The notes under the pieces: generated by a model
Told to the model about the DNA's origin: nothing
Seen by the model: only the letters and a program-made list of their open reading frames with translations
The model's database searches: none
In this document: in pieces, positions 5,633 to 42,800 of the stretch
Layout: every line of letters begins with the position of its first letter
Position numbering within the stretch: position 1 is the stretch's first letter
IMG/VR virus record: IMGVR_UViG_3300009788_000048
Span: 1 to 45,860 of that record
Strand: one strand, 5' to 3'
DNA: 45,860 bases
DNA from: a virus
Translations under genes and position numbers: made by a program

Positions 5633-5766
5633 AATCGTACCCTTTCGCATTTTCTTACCTTAATATCAGGATTTGGAACGTGTTAAATCAGGTATTTACC
5701 TATACCCAAATACATACAACGCCTATAGTATAACAAGGATGAAACAGCAAAAGCAAGAAAAAAACT

Positions 5767-21502: not shown

Positions 21503-23227
21503 ATGATTGATTTTTCGAATAAAACAGATGCTCAGATTGCCGCGATGGTATGTGTTCATCGAGGGGCCGGGGTTAAGGAACGGAGCGATTATGAGCCGTT
21601 TCGGTCGGTACTCCAGAAACTGTTCATGCCTCGTCGGTATGATCTGCTCAGGAGGACACTGCACGATTCGACTAATAAGGGCCAGCAGTTCGGGGCAAGG
21701 GTTTATGACGGTCATCTGGCAAACGCGGCGAATAAGCATGTACTCGGTCTGTTCGGTAATATGATCGGTAAGAATCTTAATTGGGTCGGGTTCGGGCCCG
21801 GTAATCAGAAGCTTGTCGAAGATGACGGTGTGAAAAAGTATATGCAGGAATCTTCGGAACAGGTTCTCTGGGGTCTGGGACAAAGTAATTTCTACGGCGC
21901 CAGTATATGGGCGGGTAAAGATGCGACGGTTATCGCCACTGCCGTACAGATCCCCGAGGAGAATCTCGTTAAGGGTGTTATGACTTACCGGAACGCTCAT
22001 CCGGGTACGGTGTTTGTCTTTAACGATCAATTCGATAATCCAGGCGCTCTTATCCGCGATATCGAGATGCAGGCGATCGATATGCTGGATAAGTTCGGAC
22101 CGAGTAATCTGCCTATCGAGGTACTCAACCAGGCTAAGAGCGTTGGGAACCGGTCACCTTTTACGAAACATAAACTCATCTACGCAAGGTATAAGAATGT
22201 GAGTCCCCGGCCCGGGAGTGTAAATGCAAAGGAACGGGAATTTAAAGAGTTCTATATAATGCCGAAACAAGGTAGCGGAGTAGGTAAAGAAGCTCGGATG
22301 CTCAGGCATACGGGCGTCGATCGCATGGCTACAATATGGCGGCCCGGTCGCGAGGATGGCTGCTCTTACGGGGTATCTCTGGCAGCTGATGCCTTCACCG
22401 ATGGCGCTCGTAGTAACGCTCTCAAAAAGATACAGCTTCAGATCGCCGGTAGAGAGGGCGATCCGCCTATACTGGCTCATAGCGCTCATCAGAATAAACT
22501 CCATCTTAACGCCGGCGGGCGTACCTGGGCGGAAGATGAAAAAGAGTTTGTTAAGATGGCCTATGACCGTACGCTTAACTGGCCGCTGACCGATGCGGAG
22601 ATGAAGGAATTAAGAATTGAGATTGATGAAGTGTTCAGTCTGGACCTGTTCCAGATGCTGACAGGAGCGCGTGATATACCATCGGGAACAACGGCTTTTC
22701 AGATCAGGAACATGCTAGGTGAAAAGGTAACGCTCATGTCATCGCTTATCGATGTACTCGAAGAGGAATATCTCGGCCCGAGTATCGAAGCGCAGTTCGA
22801 ATTCGAGCGGGCAGCTGGCCGGATGCCGACTCCTCCTCAGATATTACTCGATCCACAGTTCGGTGATGGTGAGATCGATATAAACTATACCGGTCCGCTG
22901 GAACAGATCAGAAAGAACGTTCAGCAGTCCAGGGGCCTTGTCGACGGGCTGGAGGTTATCGGTAAGATCGGTGATATGTTCCCTACCTCGTTAGTAAAGG
23001 TTAACGAGCTGCAGCTGATCGAAGATGCCGGAGTTGCGATGGGTATGGATCAGGACCTGTTCAAGAGCGATAAAGAGGTTGCCGATATAATCGCCCGTGA
23101 AGAGGCAAGGGAAGCTCAGCAGGAACAGGCGGCTATGCTTACACAAGCTGCACAGGCCGCTCCTGGTATTACCGGGCCGGTCGATCCAACGAGTATTGCG
23201 AGCCAGCTTACAGAAGCTGCCGCTTAA
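21503..23227 (+). CDS. Head-tail connector (portal) protein
   Basis: This 574-aa protein matches the podovirus head-to-tail connecting family: early RRYDLLRRTLHDSTNKGQQF and LANAANKHVLGLFGN, a central EFYIMPKQ strand, DRMATIWRPGREDGCSYGVS, the family-typical WPLTDAEMKELR and FQIRNMLGEKVTLMSSLIDV, and a Gln/Ala-rich C-terminus. Twelve copies form the ring through which DNA enters and leaves. AAAAAGGAAAG precedes the ATG. Confidence 0.88.
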   Translation: MIDFSNKTDAQIAAMVCVHRGAGVKERSDYEPFRSVLQKLFMPRRYDLLRRTLHDSTNKGQQFGARVYDGHLANAANKHVLGLFGNMIGKNLNWVGFGPGNQKLVEDDGVKKYMQESSEQVLWGLGQSNFYGASIWAGKDATVIATAVQIPEENLVKGVMTYRNAHPGTVFVFNDQFDNPGALIRDIEMQAIDMLDKFGPSNLPIEVLNQAKSVGNRSPFTKHKLIYARYKNVSPRPGSVNAKEREFKEFYIMPKQGSGVGKEARMLRHTGVDRMATIWRPGREDGCSYGVSLAADAFTDGARSNALKKIQLQIAGREGDPPILAHSAHQNKLHLNAGGRTWAEDEKEFVKMAYDRTLNWPLTDAEMKELRIEIDEVFSLDLFQMLTGARDIPSGTTAFQIRNMLGEKVTLMSSLIDVLEEEYLGPSIEAQFEFERAAGRMPTPPQILLDPQFGDGEIDINYTGPLEQIRKNVQQSRGLVDGLEVIGKIGDMFPTSLVKVNELQLIEDAGVAMGMDQDLFKSDKEVADIIAREEAREAQQEQAAMLTQAAQAAPGITGPVDPTSIASQLTEAAA

Positions 23228-25719: not shown

Positions 25720-25874
25720 GTAAAGTCAGTTACTCACCCTTTGGGTGGGCCTGATGCTTTGCGGTTAAAGTGACCGCCGCCTGTAAACAAGGCGCTAAAG
25801 TGTCAGGAGGGCCTGCAGACGGCTGTAGTTACTCTCCGAAACGAAGATTCATATTTGTTTTAAGGAGTGTAATT
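25720..25874 (+). promoter_or_regulatory. Hairpin-rich leader of the capsid gene
   Basis: Three small hairpins in a row (CACCC/GGGTG, GCGGT/ACCGC, CGCC/GGCG) lie upstream of the capsid start. Such chains often stabilise or process an abundant message. AAGGAGTG is the ribosome site. Confidence 0.4.
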
Positions 25875-26906
25875 ATGGCGTTACATTTAATGGGTTCGAG
25901 CATGACCATGTCGGAGCTCAAAACCCGCGAAAATCCGGATGGCACGGTCGCTGATCTGATCGATGTTATCAGTACGGATAACGAGGGGTTCTTCAACGAT
26001 GCCACCTGGATCATCGCAAACAACGGTACGTATCACGAAGCGACTCGCGTAGCATCAAAACCTTCTGGAGAGGTCCGAAACTTCAACGAAGGGTATCCGA
26101 TCGAAGCCGGCAAAGCGGAGAAGGTGACCGAACCTACCGAGAAGCTCGGTTCGATCTCTCAGATCGATGCCGGGTTAGCGGCAGAGCAGGATGATCCGGC
26201 TAAGTACCGGATGGATGAGGAAACGCTTTTCCTGAGTGGTATTATGGAAACGCATATCGGTCACGCTTTCGATAGTGACCGGGGAACAAGCCCGAAACAG
26301 ATCAACGGTTTCAACGCACGTGCTGACTATAACACGTTGTCAAGCGCCCAGGTGTTCGATAACGCCGACGGAGCAGCAAGCGCCACGGCGAATAAGACCA
26401 GTCTGTATGTGATCCAGTGGGGGCCGAAAATGGTTAATATGCTGGCACCCCGCAGCGGCCGCAGTGGGGGCGGTTCCTTCCCGATCCATCGGGTAGCGTA
26501 TCCGGAACGGTTGCTCACCGATCCTTTGGACTCGACGAAAAAGTTCCCGGGTTTCGAGACGCTGTTCGAGATCAATTTCGGGATCTTTATTCACGATCCG
26601 AGGATGATCTTCCGTCAATGTAATATATCGACGACGAATATCGATGGCGTCGACGACTTTAGCTGGGATGAAAAGTATCTCATCCGGATATTTAACCAGC
26701 TGCGTAATGGCGGACGTGGCGCGGTCATCTATGTTAACCGTACGCTTGCCTCTCAGTTCATGGAGCGGGCAAACGATAAGGGTAACGCAAACTGGACCTC
26801 CTCGATGGAAGGCGAGGGTCCTTTCGCTAAGCCTGTGACCAGGTTCTGGGGTATTCCGGTTCGTGTGATCGATGCGATCACTAACGAGCAGGCTACTATA
26901 ACCTGA
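25875..26906 (+). CDS. Major capsid protein
   Basis: From the ATG at 25875 the product has 343 aa and matches a podovirus major capsid family (HK97 fold): ENPDGTVADLIDVISTDNEG, NDATWIIANNGTYHEATRVA, the helix MDEETLFLSGIMETHIGHAF, an insertion loop around SGRSGGGSF, and a C-terminal GIPVRVIDAITNEQATIT strand. It is the main shell protein. Strong AAGGAG site and leader structure suggest high expression. An open frame extends upstream to 25770, but the family start and ribosome site favour 25875. Confidence 0.82.
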   Translation: MALHLMGSSMTMSELKTRENPDGTVADLIDVISTDNEGFFNDATWIIANNGTYHEATRVASKPSGEVRNFNEGYPIEAGKAEKVTEPTEKLGSISQIDAGLAAEQDDPAKYRMDEETLFLSGIMETHIGHAFDSDRGTSPKQINGFNARADYNTLSSAQVFDNADGAASATANKTSLYVIQWGPKMVNMLAPRSGRSGGGSFPIHRVAYPERLLTDPLDSTKKFPGFETLFEINFGIFIHDPRMIFRQCNISTTNIDGVDDFSWDEKYLIRIFNQLRNGGRGAVIYVNRTLASQFMERANDKGNANWTSSMEGEGPFAKPVTRFWGIPVRVIDAITNEQATIT

Positions 26907-27000: not shown

Positions 27001-27438
27001 ATGCATGATAATAAGAACAGTTTTTCTGTTCAATCGGATGGTACGGACGCCCAGACTTTTACGGGCGATTCGGTGAGTACTAATCAGATCGATTTCGATA
27101 AGGCTAACATCGAGCTAACAAGCGGTAAGTTGTGGCTTGTAGTGAAGTCGATAGCAGCGTTTGACGCCTTGACGTCTTTGGAGATCCTTCTGGAAACGGA
27201 TACGGACAGTGGTTTCGCAACTGCTCTCAAGCAGATACTGGCGTTCCACTTTGCGCTGGCATCTCTAAGCGCAGGGTCGTTACTAATAAATATCCCGCTG
27301 CCAGCCGGGATATATCAGCAGTTTATGCGACTTAAGTTCAATGTCGTCGGTTCTGACAACACGGTCGGCAGTATTTACGCGGTGTTGGCAGCAGGGCCAG
27401 AGCCTGCCGAGCCTAACCTCGACAACGTCAATCTGTAA
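27001..27438 (+). CDS. Bbp16-like capsid cement protein candidate
   Basis: This 145-aa beta-rich protein fits the Bbp16 pattern: an acidic QTFTGDSVSTNQIDFD near the start, KLWLVVKSIAAFDALTSLEI, and NIPLPAGIYQQFMRLKFNVV before a final SIYAVL strand. Bbp16 proteins sit just after capsid genes and decorate or cement the shell. AAGGAGTTG precedes the ATG. Confidence 0.6.
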   Translation: MHDNKNSFSVQSDGTDAQTFTGDSVSTNQIDFDKANIELTSGKLWLVVKSIAAFDALTSLEILLETDTDSGFATALKQILAFHFALASLSAGSLLINIPLPAGIYQQFMRLKFNVVGSDNTVGSIYAVLAAGPEPAEPNLDNVNL

Positions 27439-27545: not shown

Positions 27546-28850
27546 ATGAAAAAGTTTTTCATTTTACTAATGTTAGTAGCGGTTACGGCCTGCTGCTATA
27601 GTGCAACTAACTACAACTTAGGCGCGATAAACAGCCGGATACCAAGCGACTGGTTTGCCAATGGGGGGATAAAGGATTTTGGGACCAATGCTGTGAGGGA
27701 ATTGCAGGTTCTCATCGCGTTCAGTTCGAATCCCGGTACCGGTAAGGTGTGGTATATCGATTCGAACGTGGTTAACGAAGGCGACGGTCAGGGCGGATGG
27801 CTAAACGCAACGGATACGGTTAATGAGGTGGTTGTGTTATCCGATGACGATGGCGGTGACGATCGGGGCGATGTGTTCATGGTAGCACCAGATCACACAG
27901 AGAGCGGGATAATTGCCGATCTGGTGGATATTACGGTCTCTGGCAGTACGTTAGTGCATTTAGGTAATGGAACCAATCAAGGGGCCTATACGTTCGCTCA
28001 TGCCGATACGACGTTCGCTATTGGCGCTCCGAATGTGAGGGTTATAGGTGGGCGATATATCGCGGGAATCACTTCGATCACTATGGGTATTAGTCTCGAA
28101 GCCGCTGCCGATAACTGTGTGTTCGATGGGATGGTATTTCCGAAACCGACGACTAATAGCTGGGAATTTCTCGATACATTCGATATCGCCGATGGGGCCA
28201 ATAATCCTACGTTCGTCAATATAGTTGGCTATAACGATGAAGCCGGGGCAGCTCCGGCCCATTTCATCGATGCTGGTAACGGAACAGCCGGGCCGGTTGG
28301 TTTGACGGTTGTAAATTGCCTGATCAAAGGTGACTTTTCGGTATCGGCTATATGGTCGGATGAGCCGTGCGATGAGGCCTATATAGCCTTCAATTCGATC
28401 ACGAACCATCAAACCGGTGCGCATTGTATCGAGTTTACCGATACAGGTACCGGGTCCATCGAGTGGAACAACTGTTTCGGCGATACGGAAGGGTCGATCA
28501 TCGATCCGGGTTCGATGGCCGAATACGGGAACATTAAGAGTATAGCGGTCGATACGCCCGGATATCCGGGTTGGACCCTGCAAAGTAGTCTCGATCATTT
28601 GCTGCAGTTAGACGGCGCTACGCAAATATATCCGGAGAACGCCGTCGATGACAGTATCTTAGCGAAGATCCTTACTAAAAGCGATCCAGCTAATATATCG
28701 GATTATGACAATACGGTCCATTCGTTAGAGGCCATTGGCGATGTGTCCGCTAAGAGTGTTACGAAGGTCCTTAGCGGGATAACCAACGGTCTCCAGGATC
28801 TGTTCGTAGTTGCCGGCGGGCCGGTTAGGATCATCGAACTGTCGGGATAG
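27546..28850 (+). CDS. Beta-helix protein with lipoprotein signal (N-terminal part of a frameshifted gene)
   Basis: From the ATG at 27546 (behind AAGGG) the protein begins MKKFFILLMLVAVTAC, a lipoprotein signal with lipobox VTAC (Cys16). After GKVWYIDSNVVNEGDGQGGW there is a long series of short strands (VRVIGGRYIAGITSITMG, DNCVFDGMVF, LTVVNCLIKGDF, EAYIAFNSITNHQTG), a right-handed beta-helix as in spikes and polysaccharide-binding phage proteins. The stop comes right after IIELSG; the family-like sequence continues in the -1 frame. It is the first tail-region gene. A lipid-anchored or exported virion protein would be unusual. Confidence 0.65.
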   Translation: MKKFFILLMLVAVTACCYSATNYNLGAINSRIPSDWFANGGIKDFGTNAVRELQVLIAFSSNPGTGKVWYIDSNVVNEGDGQGGWLNATDTVNEVVVLSDDDGGDDRGDVFMVAPDHTESGIIADLVDITVSGSTLVHLGNGTNQGAYTFAHADTTFAIGAPNVRVIGGRYIAGITSITMGISLEAAADNCVFDGMVFPKPTTNSWEFLDTFDIADGANNPTFVNIVGYNDEAGAAPAHFIDAGNGTAGPVGLTVVNCLIKGDFSVSAIWSDEPCDEAYIAFNSITNHQTGAHCIEFTDTGTGSIEWNNCFGDTEGSIIDPGSMAEYGNIKSIAVDTPGYPGWTLQSSLDHLLQLDGATQIYPENAVDDSILAKILTKSDPANISDYDNTVHSLEAIGDVSAKSVTKVLSGITNGLQDLFVVAGGPVRIIELSG

Positions 28851-29215
28851 TTACTACAACGGCGATCGAAGCTAAAGGGTGTCTGATCAATTACAGTTTC
28901 GACCCGACCGTTCCGGCTGGCGATACGGTGTTCGGGACCGATGGTACCGCTCTTGAGATCAATGCCGATGCGGTGGGCGCTCTGTATACATGGGATGGGA
29001 TCATCGATAACGATCTGGTAGCTACCGATAACGGTGTAGCTCTCGGACTGCCAGCGCCAACAGATGGCAGTACCGATAAATCGGGTTCGCTGGTCGTACC
29101 GGTTGGATCGCTTGAGTTTGCGGCTGTTGTAGCTACGAGCGCTACCGGACAGATCAACTTCTATCTTCGGTACGAACCTCTGATTCCAGGGGCAATAGTA
29201 ACGGCGGCTCCGTAG
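28847..29215 (+). CDS. C-terminal continuation of the beta-helix protein (-1 frame)
   Basis: Read in the -1 frame the sequence goes on as IVTTTAIEAKGCLINYSFDP and a beta-rich domain (SGSLVVPVGSLEFAAVVA, INFYLRYEPLIPG), as expected for a spike C-terminus. There is no ribosome site at the first in-frame start (GTG 28928). Joining both frames gives about 555 aa. One missing base near the GGGA at 28844-28847, or -1 frameshifting, explains it; no classical slippery heptamer is present. Confidence 0.6.
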   Translation: MVTTTAIEAKGCLINYSFDPTVPAGDTVFGTDGTALEINADAVGALYTWDGIIDNDLVATDNGVALGLPAPTDGSTDKSGSLVVPVGSLEFAAVVATSATGQINFYLRYEPLIPGAIVTAAP

Positions 29216-29252
29216 TGTTCGATGGTTAATGGGTTCTTTTAAGGGGCAAATC

Positions 29253-30188
29253 ATGAAAAAGTTAAAAATCCAATTTGGTGTGTTTATGGTGTTTTTTGTT
29301 TGTTTTGTGTGGTGGATGACAGGTATGTCGCTGGACGCCCGAGACGCCAATGCCGTGCCGGTTGATTCTTATCATTCGAGCTGGCATCTGGTGCGCGAAA
29401 CGGCTGATGAGGATGGCGCTACGTTTGCGGCCGTCTACGCTCTGGCCGGGATCGAGAGTAACTTCGCCAATAAGGATACTTCGAGCGTTGCCAATGGCGG
29501 GGCGTTCAGGATATCCTCTCGAAACGTAGCCGGTCCCGATGAGGGGTGGTCAGCCGGCCAGACATGGGAGCTTATGTTCTGCGGTGAGAATCGTAATAAC
29601 GTCGACGATACGTTCAGTTTCAACGTCGTCGGCTGGAACAAGATCAACGGTCCCTTACAGGTCATCTGCGAGGGCGATTGCGTATTAGGTACCCAAAGCG
29701 TTGTAGTGTTCCCGGACGGCGGCGATGCTTTAGGTTCTCTGGTGTCGCTTACCGGGGTTGCTTACGATCATACGGGTGGGACCCAGGATCAATATTTCAC
29801 AAAAGACGGGATAGGGGTTGGCGTAGTTGCCGGGATGCAGGCTTACGTTACAGGTACCAATATTACTTCCGGGTTCTCTCAGGTTACGGTCGTTACCGAT
29901 GCGAACAATATCAAGATAACAGTGACCGCAACGGATGACAATACCGATTCGACGGTTCAGATCGCTCCTTCTATGTGGGCCGATACGATCACGCTGGATG
30001 AGGCTACAAAATGGCCGAAGTTCCAGGGCAACCTTGCCGGCGTCGGGGTCTATAACTCAGGCGATAATGAGATTGCTATCCTGCAGATCCAGAATCCTCC
30101 CGAATATATGCAGGTGGTTGTATACGATGCCGATGGCGCTACCGCCGAAGAGGCGGGTAATATAACTGTTTACGGTCGAAGAAAATAA
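29253..30188 (+). CDS. Virion-region protein with signal sequence, unknown
   Basis: From the ATG at 29253 (behind AAGGGG) the 311-aa protein starts MKKLKIQFGVFMVFFVCFVW, a signal sequence with likely cleavage after DANA. The mature part is beta-rich (FRISSRNVAG, WELMFCGENRNNVDDTFSFN, SGFSQVTVVTDANNIKITVT, PPEYMQVVVYDADG), similar in style to tail or capsid accessory proteins. The first 36 bp around the start closely repeat those of the beta-helix gene. It is followed by the tail adaptor gene. Family not recognised. Confidence 0.55.
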   Translation: MKKLKIQFGVFMVFFVCFVWWMTGMSLDARDANAVPVDSYHSSWHLVRETADEDGATFAAVYALAGIESNFANKDTSSVANGGAFRISSRNVAGPDEGWSAGQTWELMFCGENRNNVDDTFSFNVVGWNKINGPLQVICEGDCVLGTQSVVVFPDGGDALGSLVSLTGVAYDHTGGTQDQYFTKDGIGVGVVAGMQAYVTGTNITSGFSQVTVVTDANNIKITVTATDDNTDSTVQIAPSMWADTITLDEATKWPKFQGNLAGVGVYNSGDNEIAILQIQNPPEYMQVVVYDADGATAEEAGNITVYGRRK

Positions 30189-30200
30189 GCGAAGGTCGTT

Positions 30201-30890
30201 ATGGCAGCTAAATCGAAACTTGCGATCATAAACGCGGCCCTGATCATGCAGGGTGGTAAGAAGATATCGTCTGTGACTGCCGATAAAAAGGCGGCGATAT
30301 TAGCAAACACCTTGTACGATACGGTGGGCGATGAGCTTGCCGATATGGGTGAAGAGTGGTATTTCATGGAGGGGCGCGCCCAATTATCCGAACGAAGCGA
30401 CTCTCCTGTGTTCGGTCATCTGGAAAAGCATTATGACTTTCCCGTCAAATTCGTAGAGCTGATAGCGGTCTGCGACGAAAAAGGCAAGGATATCGAATAT
30501 GAATGGGAGCGGGGTGTTTTCATCGACTCAGCAGAGGAACAGCATCAGGTTATCAGGACAAACGCTACGACCGTCTTTATCAAATACATCGCGGAGGTAA
30601 CGAATCCGCAGTTCTGGCCCAGCTGGTATATTCGGTTATATATTCTTCGCCTGGTCCAGTACCTTGTTACTTCGGTAAAGGGTGAGAGTAACTTTATAAA
30701 TCTTACCGTCGGTAGGGCATGGGATGTTTCCTGGAAGATCGCTAAGAAAGCCAACGCAAAGGGCCGGCGGTCCAGGACGGGGTCGGGTAATAAACATGAA
30801 GATCTAGGTAATAACGATGTGATCGATGCGCCGGGTTTGGGAGTTGACTGCTTAGGAGATTGTTGTGCGATCCCGATCGAAAATAGTTAA
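30201..30890 (+). CDS. Tail tubular protein A-like adaptor (T7 gp11-like)
   Basis: This 229-aa protein has the family start KLAIINAALIMQGGKKISSV and a helical body (AAILANTLYDTVGDELADMG, then YDFPVKFVELIAVCDEKG and WPSWYIRLYILRLVQYLVTS) seen in podovirus adaptor proteins that join the connector to the tail nozzle. Length fits. The C-terminal 30 residues include CLGDCCAIP, which is not usual. It overlaps the next gene by 26 bases. Confidence 0.75.
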   Translation: MAAKSKLAIINAALIMQGGKKISSVTADKKAAILANTLYDTVGDELADMGEEWYFMEGRAQLSERSDSPVFGHLEKHYDFPVKFVELIAVCDEKGKDIEYEWERGVFIDSAEEQHQVIRTNATTVFIKYIAEVTNPQFWPSWYIRLYILRLVQYLVTSVKGESNFINLTVGRAWDVSWKIAKKANAKGRRSRTGSGNKHEDLGNNDVIDAPGLGVDCLGDCCAIPIENS

Positions 30891-33552
30891 GATATTATGT
30901 GCAGCGCTGCTGATAGTTATGGTGTCAACGGTTGTTGCGGACTCTCCGCGTTATGTTTTCCTTCCCGATGGGAGGATCGTTAAGATATCCAATAACCTAT
31001 CGCTGCCATCGCCTCCAGGGGCCGATCGGATTATGTTCTATGACTTTAGCGGTGGGGTTTTAAATTGGCTGGAGGCTGGAGCGGGTCTGACGATCACGGG
31101 TACAACGTTAAATGCCAGTGGTGTCAGTACATTTACCAGCCTTACCGATACTCCTGGCAGTTATAGCGGTCAAGCCGGTTTGTATGCAAAGGTAAACGGT
31201 GGCGAGACCGCTATTGAGTTCGGATCTATCGATGTATCCGATGACACGAATCTTGCTGTGTCTTCGCCTGTCACTTTAACGGGCGATACGCTGGGTTGGC
31301 TGTCTACTTTAATCGACTCGCCAACATGGTCCGACGGTTCAAACGCTACGAATACATGGACGTTTGATGTATCCGGAACAGACCATACAATGATCGCCGG
31401 TAGCGGGCTAATGACATTTAGCCATAATGTAACGGTTGACGGTACTATATCAGATGGCACTGCGTCGATGGTTGGCGGTTCACTTACCAACGTAAAACTC
31501 GGTTCGCTTACGGATAACGGGCTTGTAAAGACAGAGAGCGGAGACGGGTCACTGTCTGTCGATACGAATACTTATGTTGAGACCCCAATACTTATCGCTC
31601 CGGCATCTGTATTGTTTGGTTCTACCGGCAATGAACAGAATCAGGAATACGACATCGACGGCGAAACATGGGTCACATCAGGGGACGGCACACCCGACCA
31701 AGCAGGGCATCTGTTAGCCGATGTTTTAACCGCCATAGAAACCTCTTATGACGATAGTTTTTTCTCGATAAGAGAGGGTTCAGGTGTATTAGCTGGTGAT
31801 TATTTCCCACTGACCACCGAATTCACATTTGAAGGCGTTACTACGTTTGCTTCAATAATAATACGGGATTGGTACGATGGCTCCGCCTCACATTTTTTAA
31901 GCGTGGAGTTATTAAATATTGATACGAATTGGGATACAGTAGCGACTCAATCGGCATCGGCTGATTATGAGGTTCATGAATACGCTGTTCTGAACCCGGT
32001 CGATTATATTGATGCCGGGGTGGCGAAGTTAAGATTAAGGCATATACAAAACGGGATTTCATCACATCACCAAGAAATTGATTATCTGGTATTATCAACT
32101 GGTGCCGGTGGTGGTGGTGGCGGCGTTCAGACTGCCATACAAACCCCATCAACTACTACAGGCGATATTGGTTCTACGAATGTTCAGGGAGCGATAGAGG
32201 AATTAGAAGCTGAGAAGATACCGCACTCCTTAGCAGATGCAGCCAACGATTTTCTCGTAGCTTCCGGCAACGATGCTTTTGTTAAGAAGACCCTCGCTGA
32301 GACCGGAGCTATTCTTGAGGGCGATATAATTCACGATAACCTGCAAGGTGTTCATCAGTCTGTCACAAGTGGTGCCGCTCCCACATTTACAGCCGACAAC
32401 TTCTCTGATGGCGGCAGTAACGCAATTATCACAACTACACAGGAAACTAACTTCGAGACCGCTTTTACTCATGTAACCCAGGACGGTTCAAGTCATTCCC
32501 TGCTCTCTGCTACTCCCGGCACAAACACAGCAAGCAAGGCTCTCATCCCTGATGTTGACGGCAAAATGGATACATATATTACTGACGAACTTATAGCGGA
32601 TATATGGAAATTATTGAACTCTGGAGACGTAACCGCAACGTGGACAGGTTCACAGGAAGGCTATGCTGATTTTCCTGGCAGTGCTGATTATGTAACAATT
32701 AGTGACCACGCTGATTTTAACTGGACCTCGGCAGGTTTTACAGTGTCATTTTGGATGAGATCTACTGATTCGTCACTTCAATCAATTGTAGAGCAGGGGG
32801 CGGCTGTCGGTAACGCAGAACCGTATTGGGGGTTTTTACTCGCTGATACTGGGAAAGCATTTTTCATTATGGGCGACGGGGCAGCGACTCCTATAACAAT
32901 GGCAATCAATTCGATGGTACAGATTGACACAAACGCATGGGTCCATCTTGTTGGTGTTTTTGACGGTGACGATACTATAGAATTGTATGTTGATAACGTA
33001 AAAGGCGCTGGAGCAGCAGGTGAAGACCAGGATGTGTCTTTTGTTATAGATAATCCAACAGATCCCATTGTTTTTGGAAGAAGGAATACCGATGCAGACA
33101 GGGACTATACCGGTCAGGTAAATAATGTGATGTACTTTGATGCAGCTTTAGGCTCAGCAGAAATTGCAGCCATATTCGCTTTAGGCGAAACTGTCCAAAG
33201 TTATTCTCACGCTAATCTTGTGTCGTGGTGGAAGCTTACTCAGAACTTTACCGACAGCATCGACGCTCACGATGGTACGGTAACGGGGGATGTAACAATT
33301 ACAGTAACCGACACAAGAGACTTAACAATCTCTCACTCCTTTGTTGCGGGCGGCAGTATTACTTGTTTTGGTCAGCCAGCACTACTTACGCAACCGGACG
33401 AGGCCAGCTTGTCTCAAAGTGGCATTGATACTGGCGGTGGGGGTACTGCTGTCACAGATACAGATACATTTGATGGCGGTAGCCAAGGCAATGCGTACAC
33501 GATAGGTGACATCGTTGAAGCATTAAAATTAGATGGGACTTTGAAAGATTAA
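30865..33552 (+). CDS. Tail fibre or spike with LamG domain and signal peptide
   Basis: This 895-aa protein starts at GTG behind TAGGAG. The first 25 residues (KIVKILCAALLIVMVSTVVA) are a Sec signal with cleavage after VVA. The rest has fibre-like repeats (TSLTDTPGSYSGQAGLYAKV), a beta domain (residues about 235-410), a poly-Gly hinge near 415, and a LamG/concanavalin-type lectin domain (about 595-780; ADFNWTSAGFTVSFWMRSTD, NAWVHLVGVFDGDDTIELYV). Such domains bind glycans. It lies between the tubular A- and B-like genes and is probably an accessory tail fibre for host recognition. Confidence 0.7.
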   Translation: MRSRSKIVKILCAALLIVMVSTVVADSPRYVFLPDGRIVKISNNLSLPSPPGADRIMFYDFSGGVLNWLEAGAGLTITGTTLNASGVSTFTSLTDTPGSYSGQAGLYAKVNGGETAIEFGSIDVSDDTNLAVSSPVTLTGDTLGWLSTLIDSPTWSDGSNATNTWTFDVSGTDHTMIAGSGLMTFSHNVTVDGTISDGTASMVGGSLTNVKLGSLTDNGLVKTESGDGSLSVDTNTYVETPILIAPASVLFGSTGNEQNQEYDIDGETWVTSGDGTPDQAGHLLADVLTAIETSYDDSFFSIREGSGVLAGDYFPLTTEFTFEGVTTFASIIIRDWYDGSASHFLSVELLNIDTNWDTVATQSASADYEVHEYAVLNPVDYIDAGVAKLRLRHIQNGISSHHQEIDYLVLSTGAGGGGGGVQTAIQTPSTTTGDIGSTNVQGAIEELEAEKIPHSLADAANDFLVASGNDAFVKKTLAETGAILEGDIIHDNLQGVHQSVTSGAAPTFTADNFSDGGSNAIITTTQETNFETAFTHVTQDGSSHSLLSATPGTNTASKALIPDVDGKMDTYITDELIADIWKLLNSGDVTATWTGSQEGYADFPGSADYVTISDHADFNWTSAGFTVSFWMRSTDSSLQSIVEQGAAVGNAEPYWGFLLADTGKAFFIMGDGAATPITMAINSMVQIDTNAWVHLVGVFDGDDTIELYVDNVKGAGAAGEDQDVSFVIDNPTDPIVFGRRNTDADRDYTGQVNNVMYFDAALGSAEIAAIFALGETVQSYSHANLVSWWKLTQNFTDSIDAHDGTVTGDVTITVTDTRDLTISHSFVAGGSITCFGQPALLTQPDEASLSQSGIDTGGGGTAVTDTDTFDGGSQGNAYTIGDIVEALKLDGTLKD

Positions 33553-33563
33553 GGAGCAAGAAA

Positions 33564-33887
33564 ATGAAAAATGTAACTTTGATTGTAATGATAATTTTAA
33601 TGGCAGGGATCGTACGCGCAGGCGATCCCAACAGTATGGAAAGGCCAACCTTACAGAATCCGGTAACAACCTGCTTCGAACATGACTCTCATATAGCTAC
33701 TTTCAAGATGAAATTCACTGCTGACGTTTGGGCGGTCATAACCAGCGACGATTCATTTGAACCGTACGTCAAAAAGTATTGGTATGGTGGAGCGTCATCT
33801 TTTCATAGAAAGTGGCTGGTCAAACAGATGGAAAAGCTGACAGATCAACAGATAATCGAAGCGGTGATAAAAGCAGAATCGGGATAG
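33564..33887 (+). CDS. Small exported protein in the tail cluster, unknown
   Basis: This 107-aa protein begins MKNVTLIVMIILMAGIVRA, a Sec signal with cleavage after VRA. The mature part has FKMKFTADVWAVITSDDSFE and a helical end (KWLVKQMEKLTDQQIIEAVI). AAGGAGC is the ribosome site. It lies 13 bases before the nozzle gene. No family recognised. Confidence 0.6.
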   Translation: MKNVTLIVMIILMAGIVRAGDPNSMERPTLQNPVTTCFEHDSHIATFKMKFTADVWAVITSDDSFEPYVKKYWYGGASSFHRKWLVKQMEKLTDQQIIEAVIKAESG

Positions 33888-33900
33888 AGGGATACTATAA

Positions 33901-36603
33901 ATGAAACTGAAACAAATAATTATGCTGTTTTTCCTGCTCATCGCGGCGGTATCGCCGGGTGTTACTACGACGATCAATGCTTTTAACGCAGGGGAGCTCT
34001 CTCCGCTGCTGGAAGGTAGAACGGATATAGCTAAGTATTATTCGGGCTGTCGCACTCTGGAAAATTTTCTGGTCCTGTCTTATGGCGGTGTTACGAAGCG
34101 GCCGGGTACCGAATACATTGCATCGGCTAAAGCGGCCGATGAGGCTGTTCGGCTGATATCGTTTGAGTTCTCGATCCTTCAGGCATATATGTTAGAGTTT
34201 GGGGATGAATATATCAGGTTCTACCGAAATGGTGGTCAGATACTCGATGGCGGCTTGCCTTACGAGATCGCATCGCCTTACGATACGGATGCGGGTACCG
34301 ATCTATTCGATATCCAATTCGTTCAATCCGCCGATACGATGTACCTGGTCCATCCGGATTACCCGGTTATGGAGCTTACCCGGACCGATCATACTGCCTG
34401 GACACTTACAGCGACGACGTTCCAGCGTGGGCCGTTCCTTGCAGAAAACGAAACGGCGGTAACGCTAACGCCGTCGGCAGCGACGGGGGACATAACACTG
34501 ACCTCATCGTCTGCGACGTTCAACGCTAATCATGTAGGTTCGCTCTGGCAGGTAACGCATACGGCGGTTGCGGTAAACGAGTCGGGCGCCTTTAGCAATA
34601 ACGGATCTGCTCAGAACTCAGCGAGCGTTACGGTCCAATTGGGTAGAAAGTTCGACTTTACTACTCACGGGACCTGGGCGGGTGATCTGTCGCTGCAAAA
34701 GAGCTTTGATTCCGGCGTTACCTGGAAGGATGTTATACCGGTGCATTACGAAAGCGACGGTAATATCCAGTTTTCAGAGACTGAGGGCGCTAACGATGCG
34801 ATCTACCGGGTCCATGCCGAGGCGGGCGCCGCCGGTATCGATTCCGGAACCGTTACATTTAATCTTACGGCCAGATCGTTCGATGTTAATGGGGTCGTCA
34901 CGATAACTGCTATAACCGATCCCAATAATGTATCCGGGACCGTTACCAATACCTTAGGCGGAACAACGGCGACAGCCTTCTGGAACGAAGGGGCGTGGTC
35001 GGCGGATGAGGGGTATCCTAATACGGTGTGTTTCTTCGAAGAGCGGCTCTGCTTTGGCGGTACCGCTAACAGTCCGCAGACGATATGGCTGTCGCGCACC
35101 GATGACTGGCCGAACTTCTTAGCCGGTACGTTCGCTACAAGCGCCCTGCAATATTCGCTGAGCGCTAACCAGGTAAACGCTATACGCTGGCTGGCTCCGC
35201 AAAACGCTATACTGATAGGGACCAGCGGGGGTGAATGGCGGTTCGGGGCAAGTAATAACGATCCTCTTAACTTCGATAACCGGCAAGCGCATCGACAGAG
35301 CACTTACGGATCCGCATTTATTCAGTCGGTGATGGTCAATAACGTTGTACTCTACGCACAGCGCCAGGCGAAAAAGGTTCGGGAGCTTGCGTTCAGTTTT
35401 GAATTAGATAACTGGGTATCGCCGGATATGACGGTACTCTCGGAGCATATTACAGGAGATGGTATAGTTCAGTTCGCTTTCCAAAAGACTCCGGATCCTA
35501 TTCTCTGGAGCGTTATCGAAGATGGCGATCTGGCGGCTCTGACCTATAACCGCGAACAGGAGGTCGTCGCCTGGCACTTGCATACGACCGCCGGCGATTA
35601 TGAGTCGATCGCAGTTATTCCAGGTGACGGTGAAGATGAGATCTGGGTGTCCGTCGAGAGAACGATAGATTCGTCGACGGTGCGGTATATCGAGCAGTTT
35701 CAGCCCAGGGATTTCGGAGACGCAGAGGATGCGTTCTTTGTGGATTCGGGTCTATCGTTCGATGGCGGGGCAAGTATTGCCGTTACAGGTGTAACTAAGG
35801 CTCTGCCGGCGGTGGTAACGACCGGAGGGCATAGCTTTACGGACGGTCAGCAGGTGAAATTCTCCTCTGTAGGCGGGATGGATGAGCTTAATGGCCAGGT
35901 ATTTACGGTCAGTAACGAAGATGCGACGACGTTTGAGCTTAGGGACAGGACCGATGCGGTTAATATCGACTCTACCGGATTTACAGCCTATACTACGGGT
36001 GGGGATGTCGAGCATGTTGAAAATAACTTTACTACGCTTACGCATCTCGAGGGCGAAGAGGTTCAGGTCCAGGTCGACGGAGGGTTCTACGGGACCGAGA
36101 CGGTAGCGAGTTCGACGATCACATTAGATAACTTCTATAATATGGTACACGCTGGCATTGGCTATAACTCAAGGCTGCTGCCTCAGAGGCTCAACGTGCC
36201 GGGCGCTAACCTGCAGGGGCTGATCAAGCGGGTTGTAGAGCTTACGATAAGGTTCCACGATACGCAGGCTTGTAAGGTCGGGGATTCGTGGACCGATTAT
36301 GAGGCTATCGATTTCCGGAGGGCCTCCGATCCGGCTGGCGCTGCTGTTCCGCTGCGAGGGGTAGAGGATAAGGAGCATGAGTTCGATGGCGATTACGATA
36401 CCGGTGGCGATATTTATATACAATCCGATTCGCCGCTGCCGATCACGGTATTATCTATATATCCGAAGTTTGAAAGTGAGGGGTTTGCAAGGCTGGATAA
36501 GATCCGGCCGGTCGATCTGATCCCGGTTTCGCTGGCGTCGATGTGGTTCATTGGTTTTATGGTGCGGAGAAGGAACCGGAAAAAGTTTGAGGGGGTAGAA
36601 TGA
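33901..36603 (+). CDS. Tail tubular protein B-like nozzle with N-terminal signal and C-terminal anchor
   Basis: Residues about 26-60 give the family signature NAFNAGELSPLLEGRTDIAK, YYSGCRTLENFLVLSYGGVT, and the whole 900-aa protein has the long beta-propeller and fibre pattern of the T7 gp12-like nozzle (NTVCFFEERLCFGGTANSPQ, TIWLSRTDDWPNF, APQNAILIGTSGGEWRFGAS). Two things are odd. The family normally starts at NAFNAGE, but here 20 hydrophobic residues precede it (KQIIMLFFLLIAAVSPG). The C-terminus is a hydrophobic segment followed by RRRNRKK (DLIPVSLASMWFIGFMV then RRRNRKK), like exported proteins with a membrane-sorting tail. Nozzle role is well supported; export is inferred. Confidence 0.82.
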   Translation: MKLKQIIMLFFLLIAAVSPGVTTTINAFNAGELSPLLEGRTDIAKYYSGCRTLENFLVLSYGGVTKRPGTEYIASAKAADEAVRLISFEFSILQAYMLEFGDEYIRFYRNGGQILDGGLPYEIASPYDTDAGTDLFDIQFVQSADTMYLVHPDYPVMELTRTDHTAWTLTATTFQRGPFLAENETAVTLTPSAATGDITLTSSSATFNANHVGSLWQVTHTAVAVNESGAFSNNGSAQNSASVTVQLGRKFDFTTHGTWAGDLSLQKSFDSGVTWKDVIPVHYESDGNIQFSETEGANDAIYRVHAEAGAAGIDSGTVTFNLTARSFDVNGVVTITAITDPNNVSGTVTNTLGGTTATAFWNEGAWSADEGYPNTVCFFEERLCFGGTANSPQTIWLSRTDDWPNFLAGTFATSALQYSLSANQVNAIRWLAPQNAILIGTSGGEWRFGASNNDPLNFDNRQAHRQSTYGSAFIQSVMVNNVVLYAQRQAKKVRELAFSFELDNWVSPDMTVLSEHITGDGIVQFAFQKTPDPILWSVIEDGDLAALTYNREQEVVAWHLHTTAGDYESIAVIPGDGEDEIWVSVERTIDSSTVRYIEQFQPRDFGDAEDAFFVDSGLSFDGGASIAVTGVTKALPAVVTTGGHSFTDGQQVKFSSVGGMDELNGQVFTVSNEDATTFELRDRTDAVNIDSTGFTAYTTGGDVEHVENNFTTLTHLEGEEVQVQVDGGFYGTETVASSTITLDNFYNMVHAGIGYNSRLLPQRLNVPGANLQGLIKRVVELTIRFHDTQACKVGDSWTDYEAIDFRRASDPAGAAVPLRGVEDKEHEFDGDYDTGGDIYIQSDSPLPITVLSIYPKFESEGFARLDKIRPVDLIPVSLASMWFIGFMVRRRNRKKFEGVE

Positions 36604-37058
36604 TGATCAAAACTATACCATATAAACCGGAGCATGCTCTTGAGATCGTGGCTACGCATGATGGCGTCGCTGACAGCGGGATCAAGTTCGGCGATGAGGT
36701 TCAGGTGGTCGCTGAATTTATGGCAAGCAGCGCCCGATCGGTTACTTATGTGGTCGATGGCCGGATAGTCGGCTGCGGGGGGATATGTGTGGTTAAGCCT
36801 GGTTTCGGCGAGGCGTGGGGTCTGTTCGTCGCCGATATTGGCAGCGTCCATATAGATCCATATATCCCGAGAAAAAGGTTTTGGCAATGGGTCGAGGATC
36901 TTAAGCTAGATCGGGTCCAGGCTCCTATCCGGGATGGGTTCGAACGCGGTGAGCAGTATGTCAGGTACCTGGGCTTTGCTTTCGAAGAGACGCGAAAAGA
37001 TTATTACGGGGCTGGTAACGATGCGAAAATGTGGGTAATTAAAAGAAAGGTCCAATAA
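36600..37058 (+). CDS. GNAT-like phage protein (DUF2833-type)
   Basis: This 152-aa protein resembles the GNAT-like family found between nozzle and internal protein genes of T7-like phages: SVTYVVDGRIVGCGGICVVK, FGEAWGLFVADI, and EQYVRYLGFAFEETRKDY. GNAT enzymes transfer acetyl groups from acetyl-CoA; in phages the substrate is unknown and some are only structural. Overlaps the nozzle stop (ATGATG). Confidence 0.65.
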   Translation: MMIKTIPYKPEHALEIVATHDGVADSGIKFGDEVQVVAEFMASSARSVTYVVDGRIVGCGGICVVKPGFGEAWGLFVADIGSVHIDPYIPRKRFWQWVEDLKLDRVQAPIRDGFERGEQYVRYLGFAFEETRKDYYGAGNDAKMWVIKRKVQ

Positions 37059-37541: not shown

Positions 37542-38114
37542 ATGCCATTTTTAATACCATTACTGGTCGGGACGGCGGCAACTGGAGCGACGGCGGCAAC
37601 GGCGGGGCTGATCGGAACCGCTGGAGCGGTTACTACTGCCGGGCTGGTCGGAGCGGCGGCCGCTGGAGCCGGTATCTTTGCAGGTGTTACTGCTGGTGCG
37701 GCCGCGGAGTTCTCAGGTGAGCTGCAGGAAAAGCTCGGTGAGCGTGAAGCTAAGCTTAAGGAACAGGAGGCCGAAGAGCGGAGCAAAGCGGGTAAGGCGG
37801 CGGTCGATATCGAAAAGGATCAGCTCAAGCGTAATATCGAGTTACTCAGGGCCCGGCGGGCGGCGAGCGGCGTTCAGCCGGCGGGTACGCCTCTGTTGTT
37901 AGAGCTGGAGGCGGTTAAGGTTGGCACGCTCGATGCGATCCAGACTGGCCGTAATATCGAGGTAGGCGCAGAACAGTCTCGATCGGCGGCTGAACTTGCA
38001 CGGATAAAGGGTAAGGCGGCCAAAGCTGAGGGTAAACTGCGGGCAGGGACATCACTGTTCAGGACCGCTGGCACCGTCGGGATGTTCGCAGCTACAAGGT
38101 TACAAGCAGCTTAG
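37542..38114 (+). CDS. Internal virion protein, T7 gp14-like
   Basis: This 190-aa protein begins with about 55 residues of Ala/Gly/Thr-rich hydrophobic sequence (TAATGATAATAGLIGTAGAV) followed by a long charged coiled coil (EKLGEREAKLKEQEAEERSK). This resembles T7 gp14, which is ejected first and forms a channel in the outer membrane. AAGCGGAGG precedes the ATG. Confidence 0.65.
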   Translation: MPFLIPLLVGTAATGATAATAGLIGTAGAVTTAGLVGAAAAGAGIFAGVTAGAAAEFSGELQEKLGEREAKLKEQEAEERSKAGKAAVDIEKDQLKRNIELLRARRAASGVQPAGTPLLLELEAVKVGTLDAIQTGRNIEVGAEQSRSAAELARIKGKAAKAEGKLRAGTSLFRTAGTVGMFAATRLQAA

Positions 38115-38123
38115 GGATCTATT

Positions 38124-39881
38124 ATGGCTATAAAGCTAATTCAAGAGGTTTTGCCATCGGGACAATCGCCGAATGTATCAGCTCCTTTGTCGCTTGGCAG
38201 CGGATTAGCGGCGGCGTCGGCTGAGTTCGGTAATGTTATCGGTCAGCTTGGTGAGCAGGGCCAGAATCTTTCGCTTAGGATGCAGTCGCTCCAGGCGGTG
38301 GAAGAGATAACAGACGGCGATTTAAGTCTATCGAGTGGGTATAATAGCTTTCGCAGTGACCTTCAACAGGGAAGATTAAATGAAGATGGCAGCAGGGATC
38401 CGGTCGATACCGATTATGCCGGTCACGTCGAAAAATTCGATGCCTGGCATAAAGAAACGTCCGAAGCGATATTAGGAGGGTTCAAAAATAACAGGGCCAG
38501 GGAGTCGGCGTCGACCTCTTTTAGAGAGCAGGGTGTTCGATGGCGTCGCGAGATCGAATTAGGGGCGTTCGATTCGCTCCGGCGTCAATCGCAAGCGAAG
38601 ATATCGCCTAAGATCGATGCGTATAACGAGCGGATACTGCAGACGGCGGGCGCAAACGAGCGTCAGGATGTTCTCGACGAGCGCGAGGCTTACCTATTGA
38701 ACCTCGAAGCTACCGGGATGATCGACGGCGCCGGGTTCGCTAAGTGGAACGAAGAGGCGGGTAAGCGGCTGGAGAAGCTTGTCGAGGAGCGGACGGCGGA
38801 CGCTGTGCTGGCGGCGGCTAACCAGGTGAAAGGTGACGATGGCGCGATCGATTTCGCCGGCGGGCGCGATCTGATAAACGCAACCGATCTGCCGGAGGAT
38901 AAAAAAGTCGAGATGATCAGGGACCTTAAAGCTCAGGCTGCGTGGGATAATGAACAAAAGGTTATCGCTCAAAAGAACATAGAGGCCGAAAGTGAAGCTA
39001 CTCTGTGGAACACCTGGATCGATCCCGATCAGCCACTTACTGAAAGTCAGGTTCAGGACCGGTTCAATGCCGGCACGATTAATAGTACTGTTCGGGATAA
39101 GTATATCAAGAGGATCCGGGACAAGCATCCGATCATAACAGGTAGAGGGCTACGCTGGAAAATAAACGAGATGATACTGGATGTTCAGACCGGTCAGCGA
39201 AATAGTCAGGATGTTAAGAGTTTTATCGAAAAGAACTTTAATAAAATTGGCGATTCGGACCTTAACGGTTTTCAGGATGACCTTAACGCGGCGGTTCGTA
39301 AGCTCAGTGAGGGGAACCTGGACCTTACAGCGGCGTCGACTGAGAGTTGGGGTGGTAAACAGATCAAAGCTGCTTTCGCCAACGATGAGTTCGGGCCTGC
39401 GTCCGACCCTAAAAAAAATCTTGAGCCCAGTATCATTCATGATCGACGACAGCAGCAGTGGAAGGACTTTTGGAAAGCGAATCCGGGCGCAAGTGCAGAG
39501 GAGGCTCAGGCGTTCCTTGGACTGCTTACAAAGCCGTCTAATGAGCGTAAGTTCTGGAAACGGCTGGGTGTAACTATTGCAAGTCCCCTGACCGGCGGTG
39601 TTCTCACGACTATCGATCTGGTTGATCAGTTTACCGGCAAGAAAAAATCAGAGGCTTTGCTCAGCATCGAAGAGCAGATCACCGCTCAGCTCGGCGCCCT
39701 GCAGGTTCGCGGTACGCTCGGTAGGTTTATCTTAGACGCTGCCGATGCTCCGGATGCCTCAGCCGATCCTTTCGAGGTCGGTGAAAAGAGGATGATCAAC
39801 GGGGTGGAATATACGTTCCACGAAAATGGTATGTGGAAATACAATGTTGCCGGTGGTGACCCTAACGCAATAGCAAGGTAG
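38124..39881 (+). CDS. Internal virion protein, T7 gp15-like
   Basis: This 585-aa protein is mainly helical with a phage ejection-protein pattern: N-terminal LIQEVLPSGQSPNVSAPLSL, then long helices (NRARESASTSFREQGVRWRR, RQDVLDEREAYLLNLEATG). Position between gp14-like and giant gp16-like genes fits the inner core protein that spans the periplasm. Its C-terminus has a short beta hairpin (KRMINGVEYTFHENGMWKYN). Confidence 0.65.
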   Translation: MAIKLIQEVLPSGQSPNVSAPLSLGSGLAAASAEFGNVIGQLGEQGQNLSLRMQSLQAVEEITDGDLSLSSGYNSFRSDLQQGRLNEDGSRDPVDTDYAGHVEKFDAWHKETSEAILGGFKNNRARESASTSFREQGVRWRREIELGAFDSLRRQSQAKISPKIDAYNERILQTAGANERQDVLDEREAYLLNLEATGMIDGAGFAKWNEEAGKRLEKLVEERTADAVLAAANQVKGDDGAIDFAGGRDLINATDLPEDKKVEMIRDLKAQAAWDNEQKVIAQKNIEAESEATLWNTWIDPDQPLTESQVQDRFNAGTINSTVRDKYIKRIRDKHPIITGRGLRWKINEMILDVQTGQRNSQDVKSFIEKNFNKIGDSDLNGFQDDLNAAVRKLSEGNLDLTAASTESWGGKQIKAAFANDEFGPASDPKKNLEPSIIHDRRQQQWKDFWKANPGASAEEAQAFLGLLTKPSNERKFWKRLGVTIASPLTGGVLTTIDLVDQFTGKKKSEALLSIEEQITAQLGALQVRGTLGRFILDAADAPDASADPFEVGEKRMINGVEYTFHENGMWKYNVAGGDPNAIAR

Positions 39882-39888
39882 ATAAGGT

Positions 39889-42800
39889 ATGGCCTTTATA
39901 AGCACAAAAGAGTTAATGAAAAAGCCCGTAACTGGTGGCTCTCATTTTATCAGTACCGAGGAGTTGCTCGGCGGGCGCGATGAGGTGTTCGGGTTATCTA
40001 CCGGATCTAAGACTTCGCTTACCGCAAAACTTCGCCCGGTACTCGAGGGGATGAAACAGATCGAAGATCTCATGCCGGAGCATCAACGCGAATCGACGCG
40101 CCAGCTTATAGATATTCAGCCGAATCCAGCGGTATACCGCGAGCGGATGGTCGCTGAGATGCTGCTTGCCGATAAGCTTAACCAGAGTAAGGATGTGGTT
40201 CAGCGTCAATATGATATGATCGTTAAGAATATGTTCGGGCCGAAGGCGGTCGGCAGCCCGGCTATGGTGGTCGATGCACTCAGTCCGTATAAGCGGATGC
40301 CGGTATTACGGGCGGGTAAGGAGCCGGATTTCTTCGTTAAGATGTGGGAAGCGGCAAAGGGTAAGATCGGGATCGAGCCGGATGTCGGATTCTACGAATC
40401 TAATACTCGGTTCAGTCGTGAAGCTGCGAGGGGACCGGTTGCGACGGCGGCAGTTGGTACGGAAAAACTCAAGGAAAAGGAAGAGTTCGAGCGCAAGGGT
40501 TTCAAGGAAGCGGTCTCGGCTGGGTTTAGTCAGGCTGGGGTCCGGATGGCTAAGAGCGTTGCCGGTCATGCTCAGGCGCATGGTGAATTCGCAGATAAGC
40601 TGCCGAAGCGATATGACAGTAATACAGCCAACCAGATAGCGGAGTGGGGTCGGATGATGGCCGAAGGGGCCGATGAGTATTTCAGGCTGCATCCGGATGA
40701 GGCTCAGCAGCTCCAGCCGGGTACCGGGATACTCGGAACGGTGTGGCAGTTCGTCTCGCGGCCGGAGCTGGTCGTTCAGGGTGTGGTCGAGACGTCTCCT
40801 ATGCTGATGGAGGCTTATCTGGGTCATGTGACGGGAACAAAGGCCGCTGCCGTGATAGGACGCGGAGCAAAGGTACTGCCCGTAGCCGGGCGGATCACGG
40901 CGATGGCTACGGAGATATTCGGTCTGACGTATTCGGAAGCCCGAAAGGAGGGGAAAACACCTGCACAGGCTCTCGGTCAGGCTCTGCTTACATCGGTTGG
41001 TGAGGGCGCTCTCGAGGAATGGTCGCTGGAAAAGAAGATCGGGATATTTAAGGGAGTTGCCGGATCCACGGCCCGTCATCAGATGGCCCGGGCCGGGGCG
41101 AAGATCATACTCGGGACGCGCGATAGTTTTCAGCGGGGGTTCATCGAAGAGGGCGGGCAGGCACTTAACGCTAACTTGTGGGGTATGGTGTTTTCCGATA
41201 CATCGCTTACAGAGGATTTCTTTGGCAGGATCACCGAGGGCGTCACCGAAGAGGCGGCTGCCGGTGGGGTACTCGAGACGGCGCTGGGCGGGTTATTCTC
41301 TCTAGCCGGTACCGGAACGCGGGCAGTTACCGATAAGACCGCGAGTGAGCGGGTCGAGCAGTTGCGGTCGATCTTGAATAAAACTACCGGAATGAGTAAA
41401 GAGCAGAAAACCGAAGCAAACGCGGAGCTCGATCGGCAGCGTAGCGATATATTAGCAGGTAAGTTCAGTCGGCAGGGTACAGGCGAAGCGACGGCTGCTT
41501 TTCGGGATTCGGCAAAGGCTGCATTTAATATCGATGACAAGCAGGCTGCCGCGGCTATGGCTCTGGTCCAGGCTAAAGCAGATGCCGAGAATAAGACTAC
41601 CGATCAATGGCTAACCGAGAATATCGAATCGGTGCGGGCAGCTCGGTTCGAAAAGGGTCAGATACTTTTTCAGGATGACAGGGATACCCTCTTTCAGGAT
41701 TTTGGGCCCGATGAAGATGCTTTGCGCGAGACGGGGATAACTAATAAGGACCGGCGCAGGCGGATCCGTCAGGTTCAGGATCAGATCAGATCGAGCGAGG
41801 TGTTTCAGGCCTTTCAGGCAGGTCAGGATGAGCGGCTTAAGGTGGTATCGCAACATACTCAATTCTTCGTATCGCCGGAACTTCGTGGCGATGTCGAGCA
41901 GATCACCGGCAAACCCGGCTCGAAGGGGTTTAAGAAGGGCCTGCATAACCGATTCACATTCGATCGGGAAGCTGGCGCAGACGATTATACCTCTGTGGTT
42001 CAGGAACTGTTAACTGTCGAGGATCCTGTTACCGGTGAGGCTGATATATCCGCCGATATCGGGATACATGAATTTGTTAACCTGGTAGAGGAACAGATCG
42101 CGGCGGAAAAGAAAACGGGTGGGATCAATCCGGATTTACTGGAAAAGGCGATTGAAAGCGGCGATCGTGAATTACAGATATTAGCTGACCTCCTCTCCGG
42201 GTTAGAAGGCGGGGAGTCGGTAAGCGATATAAATAACAAGATAATTGGATTTGGTGAAGATGCGGGGATTTCAGAGCAGGACCTTGAAAGTTTGCTGCTA
42301 CCTGAACCAACGCCGGATCTGATCGAGCGTGCTGAGCGTGGTAAAAAAGCGGCGGCTCAATTCGCTGAAGATGGCAAAGCTACTCTGATCGCGTTTGAAA
42401 AGGCCGATTTGTCCAGCTTGTTACATGAGTTGGGTCATGTTTTCAGGAGGACGCTGGATGGTAGAGATCTGGCGGCGGTTGAAAAATGGGCCGGCGTGGA
42501 GGGCGGCAACTGGTCGATCAAACACGAAGAGAAGTTCGCTCGCGGGTTCGAGAAGTATTTGCTGGATGGCAAAGCGCCTAATCACAGGCTCAGGAGTACG
42601 TTCGCAAGGTTGCGTCAGTGGCTCAGGGCGATATACGATAATCTCCGTAATTCACCACTGGATATCGAGATATCGCCGGATGTCCGCAAGGCGTTCGATA
42701 ATATGTTCGTGGTTCGGGAGATCCATCCGGGTGAGATGACGTTCGATGAGTTTATAGATAAACTCGGAAAAGAGCTGATGGACAAAAATTCACTCTGGAT

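Follow-up and report, generated by a model that had tools for sequence, protein, structure and literature searches.

The window analysed here is the whole of IMG/VR virus record IMGVR_UViG_3300009788_000048, 45,860 bases long with a 123-bp terminal repeat. It is the genome of a temperate, short-tailed phage with an integrase, early genes and a rightward late block, in which portal, capsid, cement, appendages, adaptor, nozzle, a GNAT-like gene, ejection proteins and fibre follow one another. The structural genes found in the window are of the tailed-phage type, in a scan that was not aimed at inovirus extrusion machinery or coat proteins. Seven late proteins, including the tail nozzle and the tail fibre, begin with Sec or lipoprotein-like signals, and a group of related phages (the clade) keeps such signals on its nozzle, fibre and appendages. 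Signals were called with a home-made predictor that scores the charge of the n-region, the hydrophobicity of the h-region and the residues at -3/-1 or a lipobox, with a cut-off score of at least 5. On two annotated stretches of E. coli K-12, the predictor picked out 18 of 19 known signal proteins, none among 53 cytosolic proteins, and also 5 of the 17 membrane proteins. The signal-bearing late genes are listed below, with a slash marking the predicted cut.

27546..28850, + strand: beta-helix appendage; lipoprotein-like signal at 27546-27590, signal score 8.1
29253..30188, + strand: clade-specific protein; Sec signal at 29253-29354 (ANA/VPVDSY)
30865..33552, + strand: LamG/concanavalin-like fibre; Sec signal at 30865-30939, PF13385 (E 9e-21), signal score 7.7
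33564..33887, + strand: small protein; Sec signal at 33564-33620, signal score 6.5
33901..36603, + strand: tail nozzle (gp12-like); phrog_376 (E 2e-206), 8ck1 (E 1e-110), signal score 6.6
36517..36600, + strand: C-terminal extension of the nozzle, hydrophobic LIPVSLASMWFIGFMV followed by RRRNRKK, from the alignment and a C-terminal scan
45644..45860, then across the 123-bp terminal repeat to 1..1247, + strand: tail fibre (gp17-N-like); fibre PHROGs, signal score 6.96, Shine-Dalgarno motif
1260..1514, + strand: small protein; Sec signal at 1260-1316, signal score 7.85, upstream of a holin-like gene (1526-1753)

All seven N-termini scored positive (5.7-8.1), as the sequence-only reading of this DNA had proposed, with a K/R n-region, a hydrophobic h-region and small residues at -3/-1. 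A Shine-Dalgarno-like motif at usable spacing was present at all seven starts; none precedes 27522, 29229 or 45638, the ATGs farther upstream that would be alternative starts for 27546, 29253 and 45644. The lipobox read earlier at 27546 held in part: VTA/C fits the pattern [LVI][ASTVI][GAS]C, whereas the homologues mostly carry type I sites. The fibre signal, MRKIKMIMLASMMCVLFQG/C, ends in a poor lipobox match (FQG/C), where type I cleavage may occur instead. An AlphaFold2 model of the 27546 product (predicted local distance difference test score, pLDDT, 67) contained beta-helix strands and, in Foldseek, weakly matched lyases with a beta-helix as well as tailspikes, while the model of the 29253 product was poor (pLDDT 41). 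Three further window proteins scored, namely 4046 (minus strand, cargo), 17313 (Tat-like) and 17668, which is probably a membrane protein; the remaining window proteins were silent. The protein encoded at 17313-17666 has 117 aa and a Tat-like start (RRSFMKML; TIGR01409 barely over its cut-off) and does not lie in the structural block.

The other genes of the late block carry no signal. The earlier claim that connector, capsid, adaptor and gp15-like proteins lack signals was borne out, as none of them scored, nor did the cement, GNAT-like and gp16-like proteins.

21503..23227, + strand: portal; phrog_332, no signal
25770..26906, + strand: major capsid protein; phrog_212, no signal
27001..27438, + strand: cement protein, which we take to be Bbp16-like; no signal
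30201..30890, + strand: tail adaptor (gp11-like); phrog_394, no signal, marking the boundary of the trait
36600..37058, + strand: GNAT-like protein downstream of the nozzle; no signal
37542..45641, + strand: gp14/gp15/gp16-like ejection proteins; no signals

Relatives were collected by a nozzle profile search of IMG/VR, which gave 80 loci in which every open reading frame (ORF) was scanned for signals. Most nozzle homologues were leaderless, and leaders were present in the closest relatives, L012 (55% identical) and L013 (50%), as well as in L042, L072 and L083. When five nozzles with leaders served as queries in a further search, about 20 relatives were added, mostly with leaders, together with L094, a contig from a metagenome-assembled genome (MAG) of Planctomycetota. 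In all, about 20 related phages, with nozzles 38-60% identical, keep signals on nozzle, fibre, beta-helix and other appendages. The loci fell into nearly two classes: most had no signal-bearing ORF, with a maximum of three, and clade loci had three to seven, always including the nozzle (that of L012 scoring 4.7).

The same division was seen family by family. Nozzle signals at or above the cut-off were present in 22/28 clade entries and 0/73 controls, and fibre signals in 6/7 (the seventh is a fragment from within the window gene) and 0/31, consistent with the earlier statement that T7-like tail homologues start without them. Beta-helix proteins carried signals in 19 of 24 clade cases, with none found in the controls. 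No signal was found on the adaptor (clade 0/22, controls 0/65), portal (0/13, 0/44), capsid (0/7, 0/10), cement (0/6, 0/8) or GNAT-like protein (0/20, 0/36). The six nozzle exceptions comprise L111, L112 and L114, where the signal follows an ATT or ATA start, L012 at 4.7, a fragment in L116, and a second partial match in L098 at 4.9. These unusual apparent ATT/ATA starts lie behind strong Shine-Dalgarno motifs (L111:824-878, L112:2672-2792, L114:9908-9959). When ORFs of 90 aa or longer were counted, 77 of 318 in the clade (window and near-duplicates excluded) carried a signal compared to 13 of 922 in controls (Fisher p ~1e-35, nominal since the rows are related), indicating that the signals are not due to chance. 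The clade was partly defined through the nozzle signal, and the independent lines of evidence are therefore the fibre, the beta-helix, the 29253 homologues and the negative families. A tree computed from 100 nozzles with the leader left out required 3 changes of the trait, compared to 21 with shuffled labels.

Within one genome, the signal DNA of different genes was unrelated, with the exception of two pairs, 27546/29253 in the window and another in L097, indicating that the signals arose or were retained gene by gene. Shuffling of a signal cassette between genes was thus rejected as a general explanation. The leaders of 27546 and 29253 share DNA at 27522-27570 and 29229-29277 (TTTTAAGGG..CAA.ATCATGAAAAAGTT), possibly a recent copy of the ribosome-binding site and signal start. 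A selection test on the h-region was not counted, as it is biased by a predictor that itself requires an uncharged core.

The position of the predicted cuts in the nozzle was then compared with the N-termini of signal-less homologues. The window nozzle is full-length (residues 23-861 covered against phrog_376), and its nearest solved homologue is the tail nozzle of Cobetia phage Carin1 (8ck1). Signal-less homologues begin immediately upstream of FNAGELSP and usual nozzles start directly ahead of the NFxxGELSP core, unlike the window nozzle, whose 26-aa hydrophobic leader ends where known homologues begin, about 10 residues before that core. The Sec signal at approximately 33901-33960 reads MKLKQIIMLFFLLIAAVSPG/VTTTINAFNAGELSP, with the putative cleavage site placed by comparison with homologues. 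The distance from cut to core was 7-13 aa in 14 of 18 nozzles with a signal, and the 62 controls started a median of 10 aa ahead of the core. The remaining four, including the window, have their best-scoring cut right at the core; for them, a cut 7 residues ahead of it agrees with the homologues. Leaders drift while the mature start stays constant, as in the subgroup of L042, L104, L105, L106, L107 and L072 (MRHILIFLFLCCTAFA/ENPYRI, MKRFLILLLLCSVAFA/ENPYRI, MRYIVIVLLLCSSIFA/ANPYRI). Cysteine content differed mildly (0.74% in exported nozzles and 0.56% in the others) and was not used as evidence.

The fibre gave the same picture. In L102 and L148, the fibre signal stops precisely where the signal-less fibres have residue 1, and in L095 it does so within 1-2 residues, so that junctions such as AFG/TVSEDE and AAA/TVPAGE stand against signal-less starts M/TVASSE and M/TVSSST. 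In four homologues of the 29253 protein (50-54% identical), alanine at -1 is invariant (ANA/VPVDSY, VDA/EPLDTY, LPA/IPLDTY, VRA/EPVDQY). Signal status of fibre and nozzle agreed in 36 of 36 cases where both could be counted (5 with, 31 without). The signals are thus kept despite drift in their sequence, are absent from adaptor, portal and capsid, and by cleavage restore the family N-terminus, in agreement with the proposal that selection underlies their clustering in tail and fibre genes.

These junctions bear directly on what the segments are. The sequence-only reading had also allowed that the hydrophobic helices have an assembly role, and an explanation of this kind would make them structural leaders for tail assembly or for membrane penetration at infection rather than Sec signals, as hydrophobic N-termini also occur on T7-type gp14-like ejection proteins. 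The segments occur on unrelated proteins with n/h/c organization, K/R residues and AxA or lipobox ends, and vary freely outside the conserved nozzle and fibre fold; many have an uncharged core of 13-14 residues with AxA-type ends, making a structural role distinctly improbable. The same core length in many nozzle signals is short for a stable anchor, and the conserved cleavage sites finish precisely at the family N-terminus. Both observations argue against membrane-tethered assembly, in which uncleaved N-termini would act as signal-anchors, with tails forming on the cytoplasmic membrane and heads docking there. This alternative is favoured by long signals, such as that of 29253 and the 30-33 aa leaders on small clade proteins, and by an anchor candidate at the C-terminus of the window nozzle, and we consider it unlikely. 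The C-terminal hydrophobic segment with RRRNRKK is confined to the window and L001 among the homologues, which also counts against tethering as the general arrangement. It is possibly a membrane anchor or sorting-tag-like element, in agreement with the positive-inside rule provided that the body of the protein is outside; NCBIfam gave no sorting-tag match for the nozzle C-terminus.

Capture of adhesin-like appendages from secreted host proteins, together with signals that are functionless in the phage, was also considered. Secreted host proteins often contain LamG and beta-helix domains, and the cargo gene at 4046 is plainly host-like. The nozzle and the gp17-like fibre, in contrast, are core phage proteins with signal-less relatives, yet their signals are conserved, and a functionless signal would mislocate essential parts and hence be lost, so that host-gene capture appears very improbable.

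Conservation of the signals and their restriction to distal parts support the earlier suggestion that tail parts are exported or membrane-associated, and we regard export of the distal tail parts as likely. In known short-tailed phages, the joining of adaptor and nozzle is a late step that follows packaging. With the trait boundary at this interface, the most economical reading has all parts beyond it exported, and the particle completed at the membrane or after holin action. The nozzle, the fibre, the beta-helix and LamG appendages and some small proteins would be made as Sec precursors, cross the cytoplasmic membrane and be cut by signal peptidase, a few perhaps being lipidated. The processed parts would wait within the periplasm or on its inner face, while DNA-filled heads, closed by the signal-less adaptor, would be built in the cytoplasm. 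The halves would then meet at the adaptor-nozzle interface, either upon opening of the membrane by the holin or at a membrane docking site. The translocation, cleavage, waiting place and joining time of the tail parts are what we infer from these gene sequences. That export is followed by completion of the particle outside the cytoplasm seems about evenly balanced, leaning if anything towards yes. An assembly divided by the cytoplasmic membrane, with heads and adaptor inside, nozzle, fibres and appendages maturing in an often enlarged periplasm, and completion where the compartments meet, is conceivable but falls a little short of an even chance. As a whole, the account of full export and two-compartment joining is somewhat favoured as the best explanation.

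Several points weigh against this account. The case for export rests on sequence, and the signal calls come from the home-made predictor; since 5 of 17 E. coli membrane proteins also score, certain N-termini may be anchors, the 29253 leader being long. The 29253 homologue of L083 is signal-less, and in L150 nozzle and fibre alike lack the signal, probably a loss of the trait, so that signals have disappeared while the module remains. A membrane would separate the DNA-filled head from the exported parts that it has to reach, and the analysis found no mechanism dedicated to this. An ATG or GTG lies inside the gene, after the signal, in a few clade members (L012, L013, L101), making a cytosolic nozzle possible there. 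Such starts would suit a dual localization, with an exported surface or secreted form and a signal-less virion form from the downstream start. The window nozzle has no alternative start past its signal that would give a cytosolic form, and the dual-start model was rejected for the window. Most other nozzles likewise have none, and the genes lie within a late structural operon, so dual localization is hardly probable for the group.

The tail proteins had been described as T7-like, which is correct for a gp12-like nozzle and a gp11-like adaptor, while the module as a whole is closer to epsilon15/BPP-1 phages than to T7 itself. It resembles that of epsilon15, BPP-1, Carin1 (8ck1) and Pelagibacter phage Skadi in gene order, nozzle, adaptor, GNAT-like gene and gp17-like fibre N-domain, and the GNAT-like gene at 36600..37058 holds the position of the acetyltransferase-like genes of epsilon15 and Skadi-4. 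Unlike the clade, none of the known phages of this type that were examined has a nozzle or fibre signal. To our knowledge, tailed phages are taken to assemble entirely within the cytoplasm, and a search of the open-access literature gave no report of nozzle or fibre signals in a tailed phage. Filamentous (Ff) phages extrude non-tailed virions with no preformed DNA-filled head, and their proteins have no homology to the clade tail parts. Their pIII and pVIII carry type I signals and enter the inner membrane ahead of assembly (PMC4823517), a likeness in that virion proteins bear signals. Secreted endolysins, of the Sec-signal or signal-arrest-release (SAR) type as reported for UFJF_PfDIW6 (PMC8951688), are likewise late phage proteins exported by host Sec and differ in being lysis enzymes, not virion parts. 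The structural module is thus already known, and export of its parts would be a new variant; membrane-spanning assembly, if shown, would be categorically new. If the account is true, the lineage needs a means of joining two compartments, and its receptor-binding parts could use oxidative folding, lipidation or glycosylation.

The likely host was sought through the integration site and the cargo gene next to it.

2617..3606, - strand: integrase, the ORF adjoining attP
3683..3719, - strand: likely attP beside the integrase; 37 nt from the 5' half of tRNA-Thr(CGT), identical or nearly so in many Planctomycetota genomes
4046..5650, - strand: host-like secreted cargo protein with PKD and dockerin-like end, beside the integrase

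Of 397 genomes searched from the class to which the L094 MAG belongs, 210 had attP matches, mostly at the tRNA-Thr(CGT) site. Modules of the 4046 protein, apparently lysogenic cargo, are 30-55% identical to proteins of this class, and clade members occur in two of its MAGs (L094 in G001, L148 in G506), with the caveat that MAG binning of phage contigs is fallible. The attP match, the cargo modules and the two MAGs make a planctomycete the very probable host. These bacteria are built on a Gram-negative plan, and their periplasm is capable of great enlargement (PMC5394234). Signal-less nozzles are also present in other Planctomycetota genomes, indicating that host phylum by itself is insufficient to explain the trait. 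No isolated planctomycete phage was among the nozzle homologues found here, and the signals would offer a signature by which to recognize phages of this phylum with its unusual membranes. A host link through CRISPR spacers was discarded, as the 28-45 bp matches in Planctomycetota genomes sit in ordinary repeat-free loci. The L094 contig (7.4 kb) has a host-type sensor kinase gene (L094:269-2209) beside the nozzle and no other recognized phage genes, and is either a remnant prophage or a mis-assembly.

Two reading frames of the window are interrupted. The 27546 frame ends at 28850, and the following one, which runs to 29215, is similar to the C-terminal portion of longer homologues, with indels distinguishing L001 there; the break at 28850-28928 is a probable assembly frameshift, with the frame probably continuing to 29215. 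The gp16-like gene lies in two frames (39889-44736 and 44688-45641), compared to a single 1917-aa frame in the near-identical L001, the break at 44688-44736 being either an assembly frameshift in the window or genuine. In the early region, the protein encoded at 10816-11661 has a radical-SAM-like cysteine motif (CNNNCWFC).

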